The position numbers and the translations under genes are program-made. From contig BAYV01000041.1 of NCBI GenBank assembly GCA_000710935.1, positions 1 through 64,000 of the forward strand: a stretch of DNA of 64,000 bases. The letters are read 5' to 3'. The stretch is from Iodidimonas nitroreducens (lineage in GTDB: Bacteria > Pseudomonadota > Alphaproteobacteria > Sphingomonadales > Rhodothalassiaceae). The notes beneath the pieces are model-generated. The model saw only the letters and a list, made by a program, of their open reading frames with translations. It searched no databases and was not told the origin of the DNA. Every line of letters starts with the position of its first letter. Within the stretch, counting starts at the first letter, position 1. Below are positions 36,643 to 49,325 of the stretch, piece by piece.

Positions 36643-37875
36643 CTACTCGGTATAATAGCTGAGCTGCCAGACCATTTCGTCCTCATCCATCGGATAGTCT
36701 TTCCCGTCTTGCGCCGCAATGCGCTGGGCGGGCGAGACGAGGGCGATTTCGGTTTGCATCTGAAAGGCCGTGCGCATGGAAAGCCCGGCCTTCCAGACCA
36801 GTGCGGTGACCGCCCGGCCGCTTTTGGAAAACAGAATCTGGCGCACGATGCGCGGTTCCAGTTCGCTCATCACCGCCAGACACTGGATCAAAAGCTCGCG
36901 CCGATTGGCGGTGATGCTATCGGCGATGAAGTCATCGGTGAGCATCCCCCGCCGGTAATGATCGCGGGCCTGTTCCGCCAGCCTTTGGGCTTCGCTATCA
37001 TCCACCCGTTCGGTCATGATCCGCTTGCGCACTTCATCCAAAAGGCCATCGGCGGCCTGATGGTTCAGCCCACTGCTTTCGATCATCTGATGCACCAAAG
37101 CGCTGGCGACAAAGCTGGCGATGCGCTTCATCGCCCGGATTGAAAGCGCGGGCTTCAGGGCCAGGGGTTTGTGGAGCGCGCTGACTTGGCGCGCCTGCTC
37201 GATGATCTGATCCAAAGTCTCTTCGCGAATCTGGGCGCTGGGATTGGCCAGAAGGGCTGCAACGGCGGGGATTTCAAGGCTTCCGGCAATATCATCCGAG
37301 ACGTTTTCGCTCAATTGATCGCGCCGGGCGATGGAAACCAGCGCCTGTTGCGATAGCCCGGCGGCGATGATCTCACGCAGATCATCATCATCCAAAAGCG
37401 GCGAATATTCCAAAATCGGGCAGGAAACGGTTTCTTCAAGATCGCGCGCCAGCTTCAGGATCACCGTTTTCGGCACCAGAGCGGATCGCTTGATTTCCTC
37501 GGCCAGAATGGCCCGCACCTTGGGCAGACTGTCTTTGGCAAGCTGATCAAGCATTGCCAGCACATGATCATGAAGGCGGCCGCTTTCCATGGCATCAAGG
37601 CCGGGCACCAGCCGGGCGATTTTGCGCGCCAGTTCCGCCCGCACCCCATCATCATCATCACCAACCAATATCAGATCGGCCTGATGGGGCGTGCTGGCAT
37701 TGGCGGCCACATCCCGGCGCACATCGGGGCTTTCATCCTCAGCCAGAAAATAGAGCACCTCGGGCCGGGTTTTGTGATCCTTGGCAAGGGTGATGCGATC
37801 TTCCACCTCGCCCTCCACCAGTAGCCTGCGGGCCTTCAGATACTCCTCATCCATGGGGGGAAGGTCGGTGCTCAT
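36643..37875 (-). CDS. DUF2336 family protein
   Basis: A 410-residue soluble protein matching DUF2336, an alphaproteobacterial family of HEAT-like helical repeats with clusters such as FLAEDESPDVRRDVAANAST and DSLPKVRAILAEEIK. No catalytic residues are apparent. Its start codon overlaps the stop of the diguanylate cyclase gene (TGATG), so it is translated by coupling with it, and a role in the same c-di-GMP output or as a partner protein is likely. Its stop is 13 bases from the convergent cysK stop. Confidence 0.85.
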   Translation of the reverse strand: MSTDLPPMDEEYLKARRLLVEGEVEDRITLAKDHKTRPEVLYFLAEDESPDVRRDVAANASTPHQADLILVGDDDDGVRAELARKIARLVPGLDAMESGRLHDHVLAMLDQLAKDSLPKVRAILAEEIKRSALVPKTVILKLARDLEETVSCPILEYSPLLDDDDLREIIAAGLSQQALVSIARRDQLSENVSDDIAGSLEIPAVAALLANPSAQIREETLDQIIEQARQVSALHKPLALKPALSIRAMKRIASFVASALVHQMIESSGLNHQAADGLLDEVRKRIMTERVDDSEAQRLAEQARDHYRRGMLTDDFIADSITANRRELLIQCLAVMSELEPRIVRQILFSKSGRAVTALVWKAGLSMRTAFQMQTEIALVSPAQRIAAQDGKDYPMDEDEMVWQLSYYTE

Positions 37876-39659
37876 CAGGCGGCGCCTTCCTTTTGGGGGG
37901 AGGCCACCTCATCAGGGGCGACGACATTATTTTCCCCGTCGTCGGGGGCGACGACAATCGCCGCCCGGCCCTGTTGCTTGGCGGCATAAAGGGCATGATC
38001 GGCGCGATCCGCCAGATGTTCGGGGCTATCGGGATGATCGGGACGGCTGCGGGCAATGCCGATCGACATCGACAAAGGCGAGTTCATATCCCCCGCCGTT
38101 TCCCGCAAGAGGGGCACCAGTTCCAGCAGATTTTGCGCCTTGATCTCGGCACCACTTAAATCGGTATCCTGCAGCCACAGGCCAAATTCATCACCACCGA
38201 TGCGGCCTTCCAGATCGCCCACCCGGCTTTTGTTGCGCAGCAAAGATCCCAGCTTGCGCAGCACGGCATCGCCGGCGGCATGGCCCAAACGATCATTCAC
38301 CTGCTTGAAATGATCCAGATCGATGAACAGAAAACAGCCTTCTCTGCGGCTGCGTTTCTGATGCCCAAGCCGGGCGCTCATCTCCTCGAACAAAGCCCGG
38401 CGATTGAGCAGCCCGGTCAGATCATCGACGCGCGACAGGATGCGCAGCTTATGCACCATAGCGGCCTGTTTCAGGGCAATTGCCAGATGCCCGCAAATGC
38501 CATGCACCAGTTCCACCTCATGGGCGCGCCATGGCTCGGCCGAAGCATCGCGGGTAAAAACGATGGTGGCGGAAATGCCCTGGGCGGGCCCCGCAAAGGC
38601 GATCAGGCAGGGAATATCGCCATGGCCCAGTTCAACCCGTGCATCCTCGATGCCATCCTGGCTCCCATCTTCGCCCCCATTCCGGAGAGTTTGATCAAGG
38701 GCCGAAAGCGCCATATCCACCAGATCGCCGCCTTGATCCAAGGGGCTATGGTGGATCATGGGATTGGTATCATCTGTGGCTTCATGGCGCAAAGCCCAGC
38801 CATGATGGGATCGCAGGGCCTGAGCCGCCGCCTCGGCAGCAGAGGCAACGATTTCCGCCGGGTCGGCCTCCATGCGGATATCGAGCACGATGCGGGCCAA
38901 AAGCGATTGCCGCGCCTGATCGAGCTTTTGGGCGATCTCGCGCTCATTTTCACGGGTGATATCGCGGGCCACACCCCGCGCCCCGCACCATGCGCCTTCA
39001 GGATCGGTGACCGGCACGCAGGACACCGACAGCAGAACCGGGTGGCCCTGATGATCGCAGGCCCGTACTTTGGTCATGCGTTGGGGCAGGCGGGTAGAGA
39101 AAACGATGCGGGCATCTTCGGGGCTTAGTTGAAACAGGTTTTCCGCCCGGCGGCCATTCATATCTTTGGCGGCAAAGCCCAAAGCCCCGGTGGGGCTGAC
39201 ATAGCTAAAGGCCCCTTCGGCATCGGTTTCCCATCCGAAATCCGCCGAGCAATGCATCAGATCCTTGTAAAGATCGCGGCTTTTGAGCAAGGCCCGGGTG
39301 AGATTGTTTTCAAAGGTCACCTCGCGAGCGGTGATCAGCAGATGGCTGCTTTCATAGGGCATCACCTGAATTTCATAAACCAGATGCTGGGCTTCCGGCT
39401 CGCCCAATATCACCCGTCCGGTGGCCGGTGCCCCATTGGCGGCGGCGCTGAAGATAAGCCCCCGCAAATCGGGATCGCGATCATCCATTGCCCGGGCCAG
39501 CGGTTGGGCCTGTTCATTGGATTGGATGACCGCGCCATTGACATGCACCAGCATGGCCGGACATTCGGCACGGGCGATCAAAAGCGAGGCATTTTCGCCT
39601 TCGCCCTTGAAGCCATTGCCGCTCTTATCCATTTTCGATGTGATGCCGGATGTGTTCAT
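37875..39659 (-). CDS. PAS/GAF-type diguanylate cyclase
   Basis: A 594-residue cytoplasmic signalling protein making cyclic di-GMP from GTP. Two PAS-like domains (~15-105 and ~120-235), a GAF-like region (~245-400) and a C-terminal GGDEF domain (~410-580) are in order. The active site is RIGGDEFGLWL, and the product-inhibition site RVGD lies exactly five residues before it, so feedback control is expected. ATG 39659 is chosen because the frame upstream to 39830 looks like untranslated leader and overlaps the divergent nucleotidase. No transmembrane segments: it should sense a cytoplasmic ligand or redox signal. Confidence 0.92.
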   Translation of the reverse strand: MNTSGITSKMDKSGNGFKGEGENASLLIARAECPAMLVHVNGAVIQSNEQAQPLARAMDDRDPDLRGLIFSAAANGAPATGRVILGEPEAQHLVYEIQVMPYESSHLLITAREVTFENNLTRALLKSRDLYKDLMHCSADFGWETDAEGAFSYVSPTGALGFAAKDMNGRRAENLFQLSPEDARIVFSTRLPQRMTKVRACDHQGHPVLLSVSCVPVTDPEGAWCGARGVARDITRENEREIAQKLDQARQSLLARIVLDIRMEADPAEIVASAAEAAAQALRSHHGWALRHEATDDTNPMIHHSPLDQGGDLVDMALSALDQTLRNGGEDGSQDGIEDARVELGHGDIPCLIAFAGPAQGISATIVFTRDASAEPWRAHEVELVHGICGHLAIALKQAAMVHKLRILSRVDDLTGLLNRRALFEEMSARLGHQKRSRREGCFLFIDLDHFKQVNDRLGHAAGDAVLRKLGSLLRNKSRVGDLEGRIGGDEFGLWLQDTDLSGAEIKAQNLLELVPLLRETAGDMNSPLSMSIGIARSRPDHPDSPEHLADRADHALYAAKQQGRAAIVVAPDDGENNVVAPDEVASPQKEGAA

Positions 39660-39760
39660 AATGCGTGATTTTAAGGGATTTGATCTTAAAGCGGGCTTAA
39701 TATCATGCGGTAAGACTGAACGATGAAACGCGCATAAGCGAGCAGATATTGGCAGAAAAT

Positions 39761-40423
39761 ATGGTATTTCCCAAAATACAGAATGTTGAAACCTGGGTTT
39801 TTGATCTGGATAATACGCTCTATTCACCAAGCTGTGATCTTTTCAGCCAGATCGATGTGAAGATGAGCGCTTTTGTTGCCGAACTTCTGGGCCTTGATCT
39901 GGAGGCTGCCCGGGCTTTGCAAAAGAAATATTTTCTGAGCCACGGCACCACTTTGCGCGGTTTGATGGATCATCATGATGTGCACCCCGAAAGCTTTCTT
40001 GATCAGGTGCATGATATTGATGTCAGCCCGGTGCCGCCCAACCCTGAGCTGGCGGATGTTTTGTCGGCACTGCCGGGGCGCAAGATCGTGTTCACCAATG
40101 GCTCGGTGCCCCATGCCGGGCGGGTGATGGCGCGTTTGGGGATCGATCATCTGATCGAGGATGTGTTCGATATCGCGGCAGCCGATTATCATCCCAAACC
40201 GGCAGGCGTGACCTATGATCGCTTTTTAGAACAGTATCGGATCGATCCGCAAAAAGCGGTGATGTTTGAAGATATGGCCCGTAATCTGGTGCCCGCCGCC
40301 GCCCGGGGGATGACCACGGTGTGGCTGCGCACCGGCTATGCCTATGGGGCGATGGAGCATGAACCAAAGGCCGTACATCATGAAACCGATGATCTGTCGG
40401 CCTTTTTGCGCGCCCAGCTTTAA
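39761..40423 (+). CDS. Pyrimidine 5'-nucleotidase, HAD family
   Basis: A ~220-residue HAD phosphatase of the SDT1/pyrimidine 5'-nucleotidase group. Motif I is VFDLDNTLYSP (nucleophile and acid Asp), motif II IVFTNGS, motif III Lys in YHPKPAGVTYDRF and motif IV MFEDMARNL. The helical cap (~25-90) is complete. It removes phosphate from UMP/CMP-like nucleotides or acts as a house-cleaning enzyme. Start may be ATG 39761 or the TTG at 39749. It precedes dapD in the same direction, a common alphaproteobacterial order. Confidence 0.9.
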   Translation: MVFPKIQNVETWVFDLDNTLYSPSCDLFSQIDVKMSAFVAELLGLDLEAARALQKKYFLSHGTTLRGLMDHHDVHPESFLDQVHDIDVSPVPPNPELADVLSALPGRKIVFTNGSVPHAGRVMARLGIDHLIEDVFDIAAADYHPKPAGVTYDRFLEQYRIDPQKAVMFEDMARNLVPAAARGMTTVWLRTGYAYGAMEHEPKAVHHETDDLSAFLRAQL

Positions 40424-45929: not shown

Positions 45930-45946
45930 GGAATTGTAAGAATTCC
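45930..45946. promoter_or_regulatory. Inverted repeat upstream of the PYP operon
   Basis: GGAATT, five bases, AATTCC: a perfect 6-bp dyad about 82 bases before the PYP start, in the size range of a dimeric repressor or activator site. It lies in the gap shared with the divergent DUF4197 gene, so either gene could be its target. Confidence 0.4.
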
Positions 45947-45966: not shown

Positions 45967-45992
45967 TCACCACAGCCATATGCTGTGGGTGA
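45967..45992 (+). promoter_or_regulatory. Stem-loop in the PYP leader
   Basis: TCACC-ACAGC (45967-45976) pairs with GCTGT-G-GGTGA (45982-45992) around a CATAT loop: ten pairs with one bulged G, ending 35 bases before the PYP start. It could be an mRNA-stabilising or translation-controlling hairpin, or a protein-binding dyad. No clear sigma-70 promoter was found between 45806 and 46027. Confidence 0.45.
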
Positions 45993-46027
45993 TCAGTGGT
46001 CAACATCTTATAGTTTAAGGATTTATG

Positions 46028-46405
46028 ATGCAGGTCGTTGCTTTTGGCGAAGATAATATTGAAAACAGCCTCGCGAAACTGAAAGAGGGCGAGATCGATA
46101 AGCTGGCCTTTGGGGCCATTCAACTCGATAAAAATGGCACGGTCATCCAATATAATGCCGCTGAAGGCGAGATTACCGGACGGGATCCGAGCGCTGTTCT
46201 GGGCAAGAATTTTTTCAAGGATGTGGCCCCTTGCACAGCCACGCCTGAATTTGAAGGCAAATTCAAAAAGGGTGTTGCGGCAGGTGATCTCAATGTGATG
46301 TTTGAATATATTTTCGATTATCAGATGCAGCCAACCAAGGTGAAAGTGCATATGAAAAAAGCCCTGATGGGCGATAGCTATTGGGTTTTTGTCAAGCGCC
46401 TGTGA
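46028..46405 (+). CDS. pyp: Photoactive yellow protein (blue-light receptor)
   Basis: A 125-residue PAS-fold photoreceptor carrying trans-p-coumaric acid as a thioester. It is nearly collinear with Halorhodospira halophila PYP (125 residues, from memory). Tyr42 and Glu46 (in [13 protein letters not shown]), Thr50, Arg52, the chromophore Cys69 ([12 protein letters not shown]) and Met100 ([10 protein letters not shown]) fall at the same numbers when counted from the second ATG. AAGGA lies six bases before that ATG and only three before the ATG at 46025, which supports 46028. Light isomerises the chromophore and starts a photocycle; in known hosts it is linked to blue-light responses. It overlaps the ligase gene by four bases (GTGA). 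Confidence 0.97.
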
Positions 46406-47742
46406 GACAACACAGCTCCACAAAACCCGTGCTTTTATCCCAAGGCACTGCGCCGCCTGCTTTGGTCTGGTGGCGCAGGCCCCTGATCCGCCAGCTTTTA
46501 TGTGATATTTTGATCGATGAACTGGCGCATCTCAGGCCCGGCCATCGGGGCCTTGCGGATTTATTTCACGATTGTTTGGCCAAGGATCAGGGGGCGGCGC
46601 TGGATGCTTTGCCCCTTGATGATCGGGCGGCAGATGGCCCCCGGGCTTTGGCCCTTGATTCCATGGAATTATTGAGCATCGCCGGGGCGGTCTCTCAGCG
46701 CTTTGGTCTCGATCTTTTAGGGATCGATGATTATCTGCTGGCCCGGCGGCGCTTTGGGGATTGGATCGATCTGATCATCCATGGCCGGGAAAAACTGGCG
46801 GGCACGGTTGATGATGGCATGGTTTTCTTCAGCTCGGGCAGTACCGGCACGCCCAAGCCGGTGCGCCATCATCTCGATGATTTACGGGCTGAAATTGATG
46901 GCCTGATCCAAGGGATGGGTGCACCCCGGCGCATTTTGTCGCTGGTGCCATCGCACCATATCTATGGCTTTATTTTCACGATTTTGGGCGCAGCGCGGGC
47001 GTTTCCCGCTACCCCTTCCTCCGATCATGATGGGGATGCGCTGCAGCGTCTCGATCTGCGTCGTCAAACCCCTGCGGCCTTGGCGCGGCAGGTGCAGGCC
47101 GGGGATTGGATCATCGCCCATCCCGGCTTTTGGCGGCTGGCAGCCCCGCGATTGGCGGCCATGCCGCAGGCTGTGGCGATCAGCTCAACCGCGCCGCTCG
47201 ATCGGGATGTGGCCGCGCAGATCATGGCCAGCGGCCTGATCGGTTATGAAATCTATGGCTCCACCGAAACGGCGGGCCTTGGCCTGCGGCGGATGGATGA
47301 ACCCTCTTTTCGCCTGATGGACGGATGGCAGCGATCCGCTGGCGAGGACGAAATCCACCGCGCCGATGGCCGGGTGGCGGATGTGCAGGATCATTTCATC
47401 TGGGATGAGGATGGCCGTTTCCGCCCCGATGGCCGCCGGGATGAAGCCATTCAGGTGCTGGGGATCAATGTCTATCCTGCTGAAATCGCTCGTCTTCTTG
47501 AAACCCATCCCAAGGTTTCAAAGGCCGCCGTGCGCCTGATGCGGCCCGATGAAGGGGATCGGCTCAAAGCCTTTGTGGTGCCGGTTGATGATCTTGATCC
47601 ACGATCCGCCCAAAATCTGGGCGACGACCTGATGCATTGGTGTGCCCAAAAGCTTGCCCCGGCGCAATGCCCGCGATCTTTCACAATGGGCCCGGCCTTG
47701 CCCCGCACCGGGATGGGAAAAGCGATGGATTGGGTGATTTGA
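46402..47742 (+). CDS. p-Coumarate-activating AMP ligase with acyl-carrier-like N-terminus
   Basis: A 446-residue adenylate-forming enzyme placed to activate p-coumarate for PYP. The P-loop is [13 protein letters not shown] (~143-154), then [13 protein letters not shown], the aromatic/adenine motif [13 protein letters not shown], the hinge [20 protein letters not shown] and the catalytic Lys in [13 protein letters not shown]. The ~140 residues before the P-loop are not a normal ligase N-domain. They contain [20 protein letters not shown] and RFGDWIDLI, the outline of an acyl carrier domain with Ser87 at the phosphopantetheine position. SHHIYG and the compact size recall aryl-polyene-type AMP ligases. 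GTG 46402 is chosen from the GTGA overlap with PYP. The product may be a CoA or carrier thioester. Confidence 0.9.
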
Positions 47743-49325
47743 TGATGGCGCGCGTGATCGATCTGGGGGGCACCCCAAACCCAGCCGATATCGAGGCTAT
47801 TGCCCATGGTGCTAAGGCTATCGTTTCGGATGCGGCACGATTGCGGATAAAGCGGGCCTCAGCGCTTTTGGATGATCTGATTGCCCAAAGGCGGCGGGTT
47901 TATGGGGTCACCACGGGCTTTGGCCCCCTGGCCCAGCATTATATCGCCCCGGATCAAACCGCATTGCTGCAACGGCAGTTGATTTATCATCTGGCAAGCG
48001 GGGTGGGCCAGCCGCTGCCGCCCGTGCAGGTGCGCGCCATCATGGCGGCGCGGATCGCCAGCCTGGCTCAAGGGGGATCGGGGGTTAGCGGAACGGTGAT
48101 CGATCTGATGCTCGGGTGCCTTGATCATGGGATCATCCCCTGCATTCCCGAAATGGGCACGGTGGGGGCAAGCGGCGATCTCACCCCACTGGCCCATATG
48201 GCCCTGTGTTTGATGGGGGAGGGAGAGGTTCTGCTGGATGGCCAGAAAAGGCCGGCGGGCGAGGCGCTGGCGAAGGCCGGGTTGGTCCCCCTTGACCCCG
48301 GGCGCAAGGATGGGTTGGCTTTGGTCAATGGCACTTCGGCGATGACCGGGATTGCCGCCCTGAATGATGGTGGTGCGGCCCGGGCTTTTGATCAGGCGCT
48401 GCTCATTGCGGCCTTGATTGCGGATGTGAGCAAAGCCCGGATGGAGGCCTATGATGATGCCTTGTCAAGGGCGCGGCCCCATCCCGGTCAGGCCAAAACG
48501 GCCGCCCGCCTGCGCCATATTTTGCACGATAGCCAAAGGGTGATGGCCCCGGAATGGCCCAATCCGGTGTTAAAAGCAGGGATCGAAGCAGCAGGCGATG
48601 GGGTTTTGGCGGCCCAAACCTGCCCGCAGGATGCTTATAGCCTGCGCTGTTTGCCTCAGGAATTGGGTGCGGCTTTCGATCTGTTGCAGTTTCATCATGA
48701 TGTGGTGACACGGGAATTGGCAGCAGTCAGCGATAATCCCCTGATCGATGTGGCGGCGGGCCATGCCGTTCATGGCGGCAATTTTTATGGCCAGCATGTG
48801 GCCTATGTCAGCGATTGCCTGATGCTGCCGCTGATTAAGCTGGCAGTGCATGGGGAAAGGCTGATCAATCGGCTGACCGATCCGGTGCGGAATGGCGGGC
48901 TGCCCGCCTTTTTGAGCGCCGGCACGGTGGGGATGTCGAGCGGGCTGATGGGGGCGCAGGTCACCGCCACGGCGCTGGTCGCGGAAATGCGGGGGCTGGC
49001 AACCCCGATGTCGATCCAATCCATCGCCACCAATGCCGATAATCAGGATGTGGTGACCATGGGCACCATCGCGGCCCGAAAAGCCGCGCGTCTGCTGGAT
49101 ATTTTATGGCGTCTTCTGGCGATCGAGGCGATCACCGCCAGCCATGCCATGGCCCTTTATCGGGCGCGGGGCGAGGATGGCTTTGCCAGTGCCACCCGGG
49201 CATTTGGCGAACGGATTTTGGATATCTGCCCACCTTTATCGCAGGATCGGCCCTTGGGGGCTGAGATCGAGCGGGTGGCAGCTCTACTCAGCCTTCCCCA
49301 CTTGCCCGACGACGGCTTTCGGTGA
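47742..49325 (+). CDS. tal: Tyrosine ammonia-lyase
   Basis: A 527-residue member of the HAL/PAL/TAL family, producing trans-p-coumarate and ammonia from L-tyrosine. The MIO cofactor forms from Ala143-Ser144-Gly145 in GTVGASGDLTPLAHMAL. Tyr54 lies in RRVYGVTTGFGP. RQLIYHLASGVG has His83-Leu84 at the selectivity position, where His marks tyrosine preference in Rhodobacter TAL. NGTSAMTG, QDAYSLRC, DNPL and GGNFYGQHVA are also intact. ATG 47742 shares its first base with the ligase stop (TGATG). It supplies the PYP chromophore. Its 3' end overlaps the convergent TPR gene by 38 bases. Confidence 0.95.
   Translation: MMARVIDLGGTPNPADIEAIAHGAKAIVSDAARLRIKRASALLDDLIAQRRRVYGVTTGFGPLAQHYIAPDQTALLQRQLIYHLASGVGQPLPPVQVRAIMAARIASLAQGGSGVSGTVIDLMLGCLDHGIIPCIPEMGTVGASGDLTPLAHMALCLMGEGEVLLDGQKRPAGEALAKAGLVPLDPGRKDGLALVNGTSAMTGIAALNDGGAARAFDQALLIAALIADVSKARMEAYDDALSRARPHPGQAKTAARLRHILHDSQRVMAPEWPNPVLKAGIEAAGDGVLAAQTCPQDAYSLRCLPQELGAAFDLLQFHHDVVTRELAAVSDNPLIDVAAGHAVHGGNFYGQHVAYVSDCLMLPLIKLAVHGERLINRLTDPVRNGGLPAFLSAGTVGMSSGLMGAQVTATALVAEMRGLATPMSIQSIATNADNQDVVTMGTIAARKAARLLDILWRLLAIEAITASHAMALYRARGEDGFASATRAFGERILDICPPLSQDRPLGAEIERVAALLSLPHLPDDGFR

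Follow-up and report, generated by a model that had tools for sequence, protein, structure and literature searches.

The window analysed here is a stretch of 64,000 nucleotides from the 3.08 Mb genome of Iodidimonas nitroreducens (contig BAYV01000041.1). It carries a three-gene operon that begins with pyp, the gene for a photoactive yellow protein (PYP), and continues with pcl, for a predicted p-coumarate-activating ligase, and tal, for a predicted tyrosine ammonia-lyase (TAL). The three genes lie on the forward strand at the positions given by the initial annotation, and their frames are all intact. The best explanation of the locus, to which we give a probability of about 0.65, is a self-sufficient operon in which the ligase would load p-coumarate onto a carrier domain of its own and pass it to Cys69 of PYP.

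Gene products of the operon

By its sequence, the pyp product appears to be a canonical single-domain PYP. With 203.6 bits it exceeds the cut-off of the NCBIfam equivalog TIGR02373 (143.05), and it aligns gap-free and end to end with a PDB photoactive yellow protein (E 1e-62), which we take to be that of Halorhodospira halophila. The residues Y42, E46, T50, R52, C69 and M100 are in register, as was first claimed, and the Cys69 anchor is present. The tal product matches PF00221 of Pfam at 512 bits and lies below the HutH equivalog TIGR01225 (436.2 against 539.15 bits). Its best PDB match, 2o6y (E 4e-113), is deposited as a ‘putative histidine ammonia-lyase’ and is presumably the TAL of R. sphaeroides. 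Both signatures attributed to this enzyme were found, namely ASGDL at residue 143, which we assume to be the MIO motif, and a His-Leu pair within LIYHLASG at residue 80, which we assume to be tyrosine-selective. The gene identities, and with them the proposal of a self-sufficient PYP blue-light receptor without fused output, are thus supported at this level.

As an operon the locus is ordinary: its gene order matches the PYP operon that was described first, and the pyp-pcl-tal kind is already known. The same three genes occur in the same order in H. halophila (PMC12826048), and the two PYPs align without gaps. As for the ligase, that of the window falls below the NCBIfam equivalog cut-off and has a loop insertion (described below). 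The plasmid NZ_CP030128 of Indioceanicola profundi carries pyp, pcl, an ammonia-lyase, a hypothetical gene and a GGDEF gene; the order is the same and the ligase has the N-terminal domain described below, with the motif ADSLE. There, however, same-strand genes continue into GGDEF, while the window operon stops at a convergent TPR gene.

The ligase was initially described as an AMP ligase with all core motifs. The motifs of the ANL (AMP-forming) ligases are indeed in place: SSGSTGTPK at 144, HHIYGF at 185, YGSTETAG at 285, [14 protein letters not shown] at 344 and GMGK at 437. The reading as an ordinary AMP ligase is incomplete, as the N-terminal quarter of the protein is a carrier-protein-like domain that had been overlooked. 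The PF00501 match to the ligase does not begin until profile position 166, and the ∼139 residues that precede the match belong to a different domain. The full-length AF2 model (pLDDT 90.5, pTM 0.87) has ANL structures among its structural matches.

With 263.7 bits, the enzyme misses the cut-off of the NCBIfam equivalog TIGR02372 (334.7 bits), as do 7 of the 10 other pyp-linked ligases, which indicates that this cut-off is strict; annotation based on it probably under-reports pcl. On its sequence the window protein is best named a pyp-linked ligase, not a TIGR02372 equivalog: it lies directly downstream of pyp and has the ANL motifs including Lys440, presumably the catalytic lysine. The TIGR02372 model spans the N-terminal domain, its profile positions 1-93 being matched by one pyp-linked ligase (L037) at E 6.9e-33. 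The domain is therefore a feature of the established family of PYP ligases and not of this genome alone.

The N-terminal domain of the ligase

Modelled alone by AF2, residues 22-129 reach a pLDDT of 90.9 and a pTM of 0.82, with a helix that begins exactly at Ser87. In carrier proteins, phosphopantetheine is attached to a serine placed in this way. In a second look with VIA-align at 83 chains, the top 12 rows are carrier proteins (Z 7.2-9.7 over 70-80 residues, root-mean-square deviation 1.9-2.4), after which Z drops to 3.5 in the following row. The titles of three entries (8zkp_D, 7zmb_O and 7o6y_O) name the larger complex only; 7o6y is listed elsewhere under its ACPM2 carrier subunit, and we infer that 8zkp_D and 7zmb_O are carrier subunits like it. 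In these models ligase residues ∼22-129 look like an acyl carrier protein (ACP) fold. Compared with AcpP-type ACPs, the domain has the same predicted fold and the same Asp-Ser-Leu/Met at the helix start; it differs by its N-terminal fusion to a ligase, by a helix II that is less acidic by eye and by a score under the cut-off of PF00550, the Pfam family of phosphopantetheine (PP)-binding domains.

The serine of the domain is strongly conserved. Ser87 is found in 81/81 and Asp86 in 80/81 aligned pyp-linked ligases (80 distinct sequences and one identical pair), an alignment that leaves aside ligases of less than 350 residues (L033, L077, L082 and L106, short or broken, with L033 and L077 sharing their domain sequence). 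These four ligases also keep the serine, so that each of the 85 pyp-linked ligases that were aligned or inspected has it. Two subsets were hand-picked from the 81 rows for diversity. The 61 rows of the first have a median pairwise identity of 33%, yet 28/28 representatives with less than 50% identity retain the serine, and the next most serine-rich column has 52% serine. Among the 54 full-length ligases of the second, Ser87 counts among the 21 invariant positions, together with Lys440. Over all 81 rows, the domain consists of a helix-forming stretch and a variable loop, followed by the motif Asp-Ser-(Leu/Phe/Met/Ile)-Glu and then by a tail in which Gly107, Asp110, Leu112, Leu113 and Trp121 are conserved. 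The window ligase has in addition a loop insertion at residues 51-65, which is absent from 76 to 80 of the 81 ligases depending on the position.

Comparison of sequence profiles points in the same direction. Aligned by hhalign with 32 carrier domains from the same genome and its relatives, the domain scores 29.1 with serine placed on serine, while 200 column shuffles score 9.3 on average and 17.3 at most, the reversed profile 16.8, and nine segments taken from residue 109 onwards 13.1 at most. PF00550 is the commonest weak Pfam match of the domain. When the domain profile was run over the 385 genomes of a class sample, its sole two non-ligase matches (weak, E 3e-4) were PF00550 PP-binding domains, both of which exceed the Pfam cut-off (27.2 and 45.3 against 20.8 bits). 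This reverse search, which lands on true PP-binding domains, is in our view the most telling result; the sequence signals for a carrier domain are each weak but appear consistent when taken together.

Several observations weigh against a carrier domain. A plain Foldseek search with the N-terminal domain gave nothing significant (best E 4.9, no ACP among 8 rows), and VIA Z values below ∼13 can reflect an arrangement that is common in helical bundles. With the full-length model, VIA rows align from residue ∼17 on and thus do not themselves indicate that part of the ANL fold is missing. The hhalign probability is 63%. The window domain stays under the PF00550 cut-off at 12.7 bits, only 14 of the 61 subset members match this family at E <= 10 (best E 0.0014), and a PF00550 scan of the genome of I. 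nitroreducens does not list the ligase domain. In a profile search of PDB sequences, PigH comes at E 0.014 and named ACPs from 0.043, with T4 lysozyme intermixed as noise.

These results bear on the textbook alternative, in which the ligase makes free p-coumaroyl-coenzyme A (CoA) that reacts unaided with Cys69, while its N-terminal domain either stands in structurally for a portion of the ANL N-terminus or serves to dock PYP, and bears no phosphopantetheine. We consider this alternative unlikely, though serious. The domain does occupy the place of the unmatched PF00501 positions 1-165, and the score below the PP-binding cut-off also speaks for it. A structural or docking role, however, leaves unexplained why one serine is invariant in 85 ligases when most of the domain diverges. 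At a helix N-cap, Thr, Asp, Asn or Gly should be tolerated as well, which weighs against a purely structural serine.

Linkage to PYP and genomic setting

Genomes with a PYP over the TIGR02373 cut-off, that of I. nitroreducens included, number 1 of 3 in the genus, 2 of 7 in the family, 6 of 385 in the class sample and 1 of 398 in the phylum sample. Such patchy occurrence in genus and family, together with a sigma-70 promoter scan that is not above chance (3 found against 2.8 expected), could be taken to mean that the operon is present in I. nitroreducens yet not expressed or non-functional. Three intact frames and the retention of every motif checked argue against this, and we regard a silent operon as improbable.

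A pattern scan of 84,980 species genomes gave 310 relatives; the analysis continued with the best 80 of these, so that distant and fused PYPs are under-represented. In 77 of these 80 loci, pcl follows pyp on the same strand; two of the three exceptions lie at contig ends (123 and 310 nucleotides left) and the third is a second pyp copy. By comparison, pcl is reported in 32% of predicted operons (42 instances) in PMC12826048. The samples differ, and the strict NCBIfam cut-off is likely one cause of the discrepancy. In two Glaciimonas metagenome-assembled genomes, a second, divergent PYP-like stretch with 28% identity lies on the other strand near pyp-pcl (3687-4052 in L094 and 3685-4050 in L096).

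A lyase gene was seen downstream in 27 of the 80 loci and upstream in 7, in a divergent orientation in 3 of these; none was seen in the other 46, some of which have little room. These counts are based on tblastn at E <= 1e-8 and may include histidine ammonia-lyases. Of 16 genomes that have both pyp and pcl, six (G006, G170, G268, G767, G768 and G774, the last three holding loci L041, L043 and L046) have no aromatic ammonia-lyase at E <= 1e-30, which implies uptake of p-coumarate or another source in these organisms and makes the window operon one of the self-sufficient ones.

The N-terminal domain follows PYP closely. In the class sample, 7 of 385 genomes carry it at E <= 2e-15, all among the 9 with a PYP (E <= 1e-25), against 0 of the 376 others; the domain and PYP samples each comprise 385 genomes and agree in those listed for both. 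Fisher's exact test gives 1.5e-13 for this co-occurrence but assumes an independence that the genomes do not have. For the class to which Halomonas salicampi belongs, the count is 6 of 369 genomes (the central one included), each time with pyp just upstream of the domain. The two classes together, 754 genomes, hold 14 strong domain matches in 13 genomes, of which 13 lie just downstream of pyp (within a 1.5 kb flank) and one, in G354, is 2.5 kb away from a PYP fusion. The serine is kept at all 14 places, as it is in two annotated plasmid operons. In the genomes sampled, linkage of the domain to PYP is near-exclusive. Running counter to this, G025 and G157 (91% and 79% complete) have PYP in long frames and no domain, and with at most 13 or 14 first-look candidates scored per genome, a copy may have been missed in a PYP-free genome.

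The same counts bear on another alternative, that the carrier-ligase serves mainly a different pathway, such as an aryl-polyene-like pigment, with PYP as one client only. Flexirubin synthesis also begins with a TAL and a coumarate ligase (PMC3992019). Against the alternative stand the position of all 14 strong matches near pyp or a PYP fusion and the 80 pyp loci, in which no pigment pathway was seen. We hold this alternative to be highly improbable.

Table 1. Features of the pyp-pcl-tal operon, in window coordinates
Feature	Position	Strand	Basis
Shine-Dalgarno-like AAGGA upstream of pyp	46017..46021	+	Sequence; 6 nucleotides before ATG 46028, 3 before ATG 46025
pyp, photoactive yellow protein, 125 residues	46028..46405 (alternative ATG 46025)	+	TIGR02373, PDB match, key residues
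pcl, predicted p-coumarate-activating ligase, 446 residues from GTG 46402	46402..47742 (alternative starts GTG 46429, TTG 46462)	+	TIGR02372 (below cut-off); full-length AF2 model
Predicted ACP-like N-terminal ligase domain, residues 22-129	46465..46788	+	AF2, VIA Z, hhalign to ACPs with shuffle control
Ser87 codon, candidate phosphopantetheine attachment site, motif ALDSMELL	46660..46662	+	Serine conservation; first helix residue in domain model
ANL (AMP-forming) ligase core	46816..47739	+	PF00501, protein 140-302 to profile 166-331; PF13193, 362-440; motifs; ANL structures
tal, predicted tyrosine ammonia-lyase, 527 residues	47742..49325	+	PF00221; ASGDL and YHL motifs; below HutH cut-off

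The operon (Table 1) is flanked by a divergent DUF4197 gene and ended by a convergent TPR gene. Two tandem ATG codons are available to pyp, and the spacing of the AAGGA element favours that at 46028. Stop/start overlaps had been proposed to join all three genes into one translational unit. The overlap TGATG between pcl and tal is present; that between pyp and pcl, GTGA, exists only with GTG 46402 as the ligase start, one of three that are possible, and is not conserved among homologues. With starts assigned mechanically, the gap from the pyp stop to the pcl start in these homologues lies between about -27 and +162 nucleotides, with exceptions of 276 (L034) and 840 (L103). Since the gaps vary widely, tight coupling of pyp and pcl is not a conserved feature.

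Between the DUF4197 gene and pyp are two palindromes with 5-nucleotide spacers, CCACAGC/GCTGTGG at 45970-45988 and GGAATT/AATTCC at 45930-45946. Both are possible operator sites; with one motif counted, nothing in these upstream palindromes can be called better than chance. The GC content of pyp is 46.8%, against 60.0 and 61.7% in its partner genes, which was considered as a sign of horizontal origin and set aside, as protein composition may explain it. In an 88-row PYP tree with few columns, no well-supported set holds the window PYP, and a horizontal origin was not retained. Viral carriage of pyp was likewise rejected, with one weak IMG/VR relative of 29% identity.

As for the output of the receptor, no output gene is fused to pyp, in agreement with the initial annotation, and none lies in the operon, whose flanks are the DUF4197 and TPR genes. 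Among the frames that recur beside pyp-pcl in the 80 loci, ammonia-lyases come first (34), followed by GGDEF/EAL-like (22) and chemoreceptor-like (10) frames, the latter two labels being our reading of blast clusters. Judged from these relatives only, cyclic di-GMP is plausibly the likeliest output route. In the window, a gene for a PAS-GGDEF diguanylate cyclase lies on the opposite strand at 37875-39830, ∼6.2 kb upstream of pyp.

A possible route to Cys69

In the proposed mechanism, TAL would convert tyrosine to p-coumarate, which the ANL core of the ligase would adenylate. AcpS, of whose family the I. nitroreducens genome has one gene, would convert the N-terminal carrier domain to its holo form at Ser87, after which the ligase would load p-coumarate in cis onto the phosphopantetheine thiol of its own arm. 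The arm would then deliver p-coumarate by thioester exchange to Cys69 of PYP. The ligase would accordingly be a PYP-dedicated self-loading carrier-ligase, or chromophore transferase, and not merely a maker of free coumaroyl-CoA. We infer phosphopantetheinylation, loading in cis and transfer to Cys69 together, as they would be the simplest account of a carrier-type serine that is invariant in an enzyme tied to PYP. A more specific claim, that the enzyme regarded for two decades as the coumaroyl-CoA ligase of PYP is a single-chain carrier-ligase whose holo-ACP-like arm hands p-coumarate specifically to Cys69 with CoA only a substitute, has the balance tilted slightly in its favour.

The component steps have counterparts in known systems. 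NRPS/CAR-type A-PCP didomains are analogous in that they adenylate a substrate and then transfer it to a phosphopantetheine arm. Fatty acyl-AMP ligases (FAALs) that act with ACPs work alike, adenylation being followed by transfer to the phosphopantetheine arm rather than to CoA; ANL enzymes that prefer holo-ACP over CoA are known, as are FAAL-ACP didomains (PMC8460268). The window ligase would differ from FAAL-ACP and A-PCP didomains by the N-terminal position of its carrier domain and by its proposed final acceptor, a protein cysteine.

The textbook route also draws on earlier work with the biosynthetic genes. Holo-PYP was reportedly obtained by their tandem expression, according to the title of Kyndt 2003, and the host is said to have been E. 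coli. However, the E. coli genome also contains an AcpS-family gene, which served as a search control, so that co-expression does not separate the two routes. Published accounts (PMC12826048 and PMC6273459) also speak against the carrier mechanism by giving CoA as the acceptor and a CoA thioester as the intermediate, but the free coumaroyl-CoA of these accounts need not be the physiological route. Full-text searches of CC-licensed PMC papers listed none on a carrier domain in PYP or in the PYP ligase, a scope outside which most subscription papers fall, the original ligase work included, so that an earlier mention may exist. The terms ‘carrier protein’ and ‘phosphopantetheine’ are absent from PMC12826048, and ‘carrier’ and ‘phosphopantetheine’ from PMC9664959.

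The carrier-like domain is the part of this locus that goes beyond the known operon, and it suggests an unrecognised route of pigment loading. PYP is both a model photoreceptor and a protein-labelling tag, and the loading of its Cys69 is described as proceeding from free coumaroyl-CoA. The conserved carrier-like domain makes this step testable by a single point mutation, and the ligase that bears it could become a specific tool for chromophore loading. If the proposed mechanism is true, the maturation of PYP would be an enzyme-guided transfer in which the chromophore leaves a phosphopantetheine arm for a cysteine of the photoreceptor, which would explain why the ligase is tied to PYP loci.

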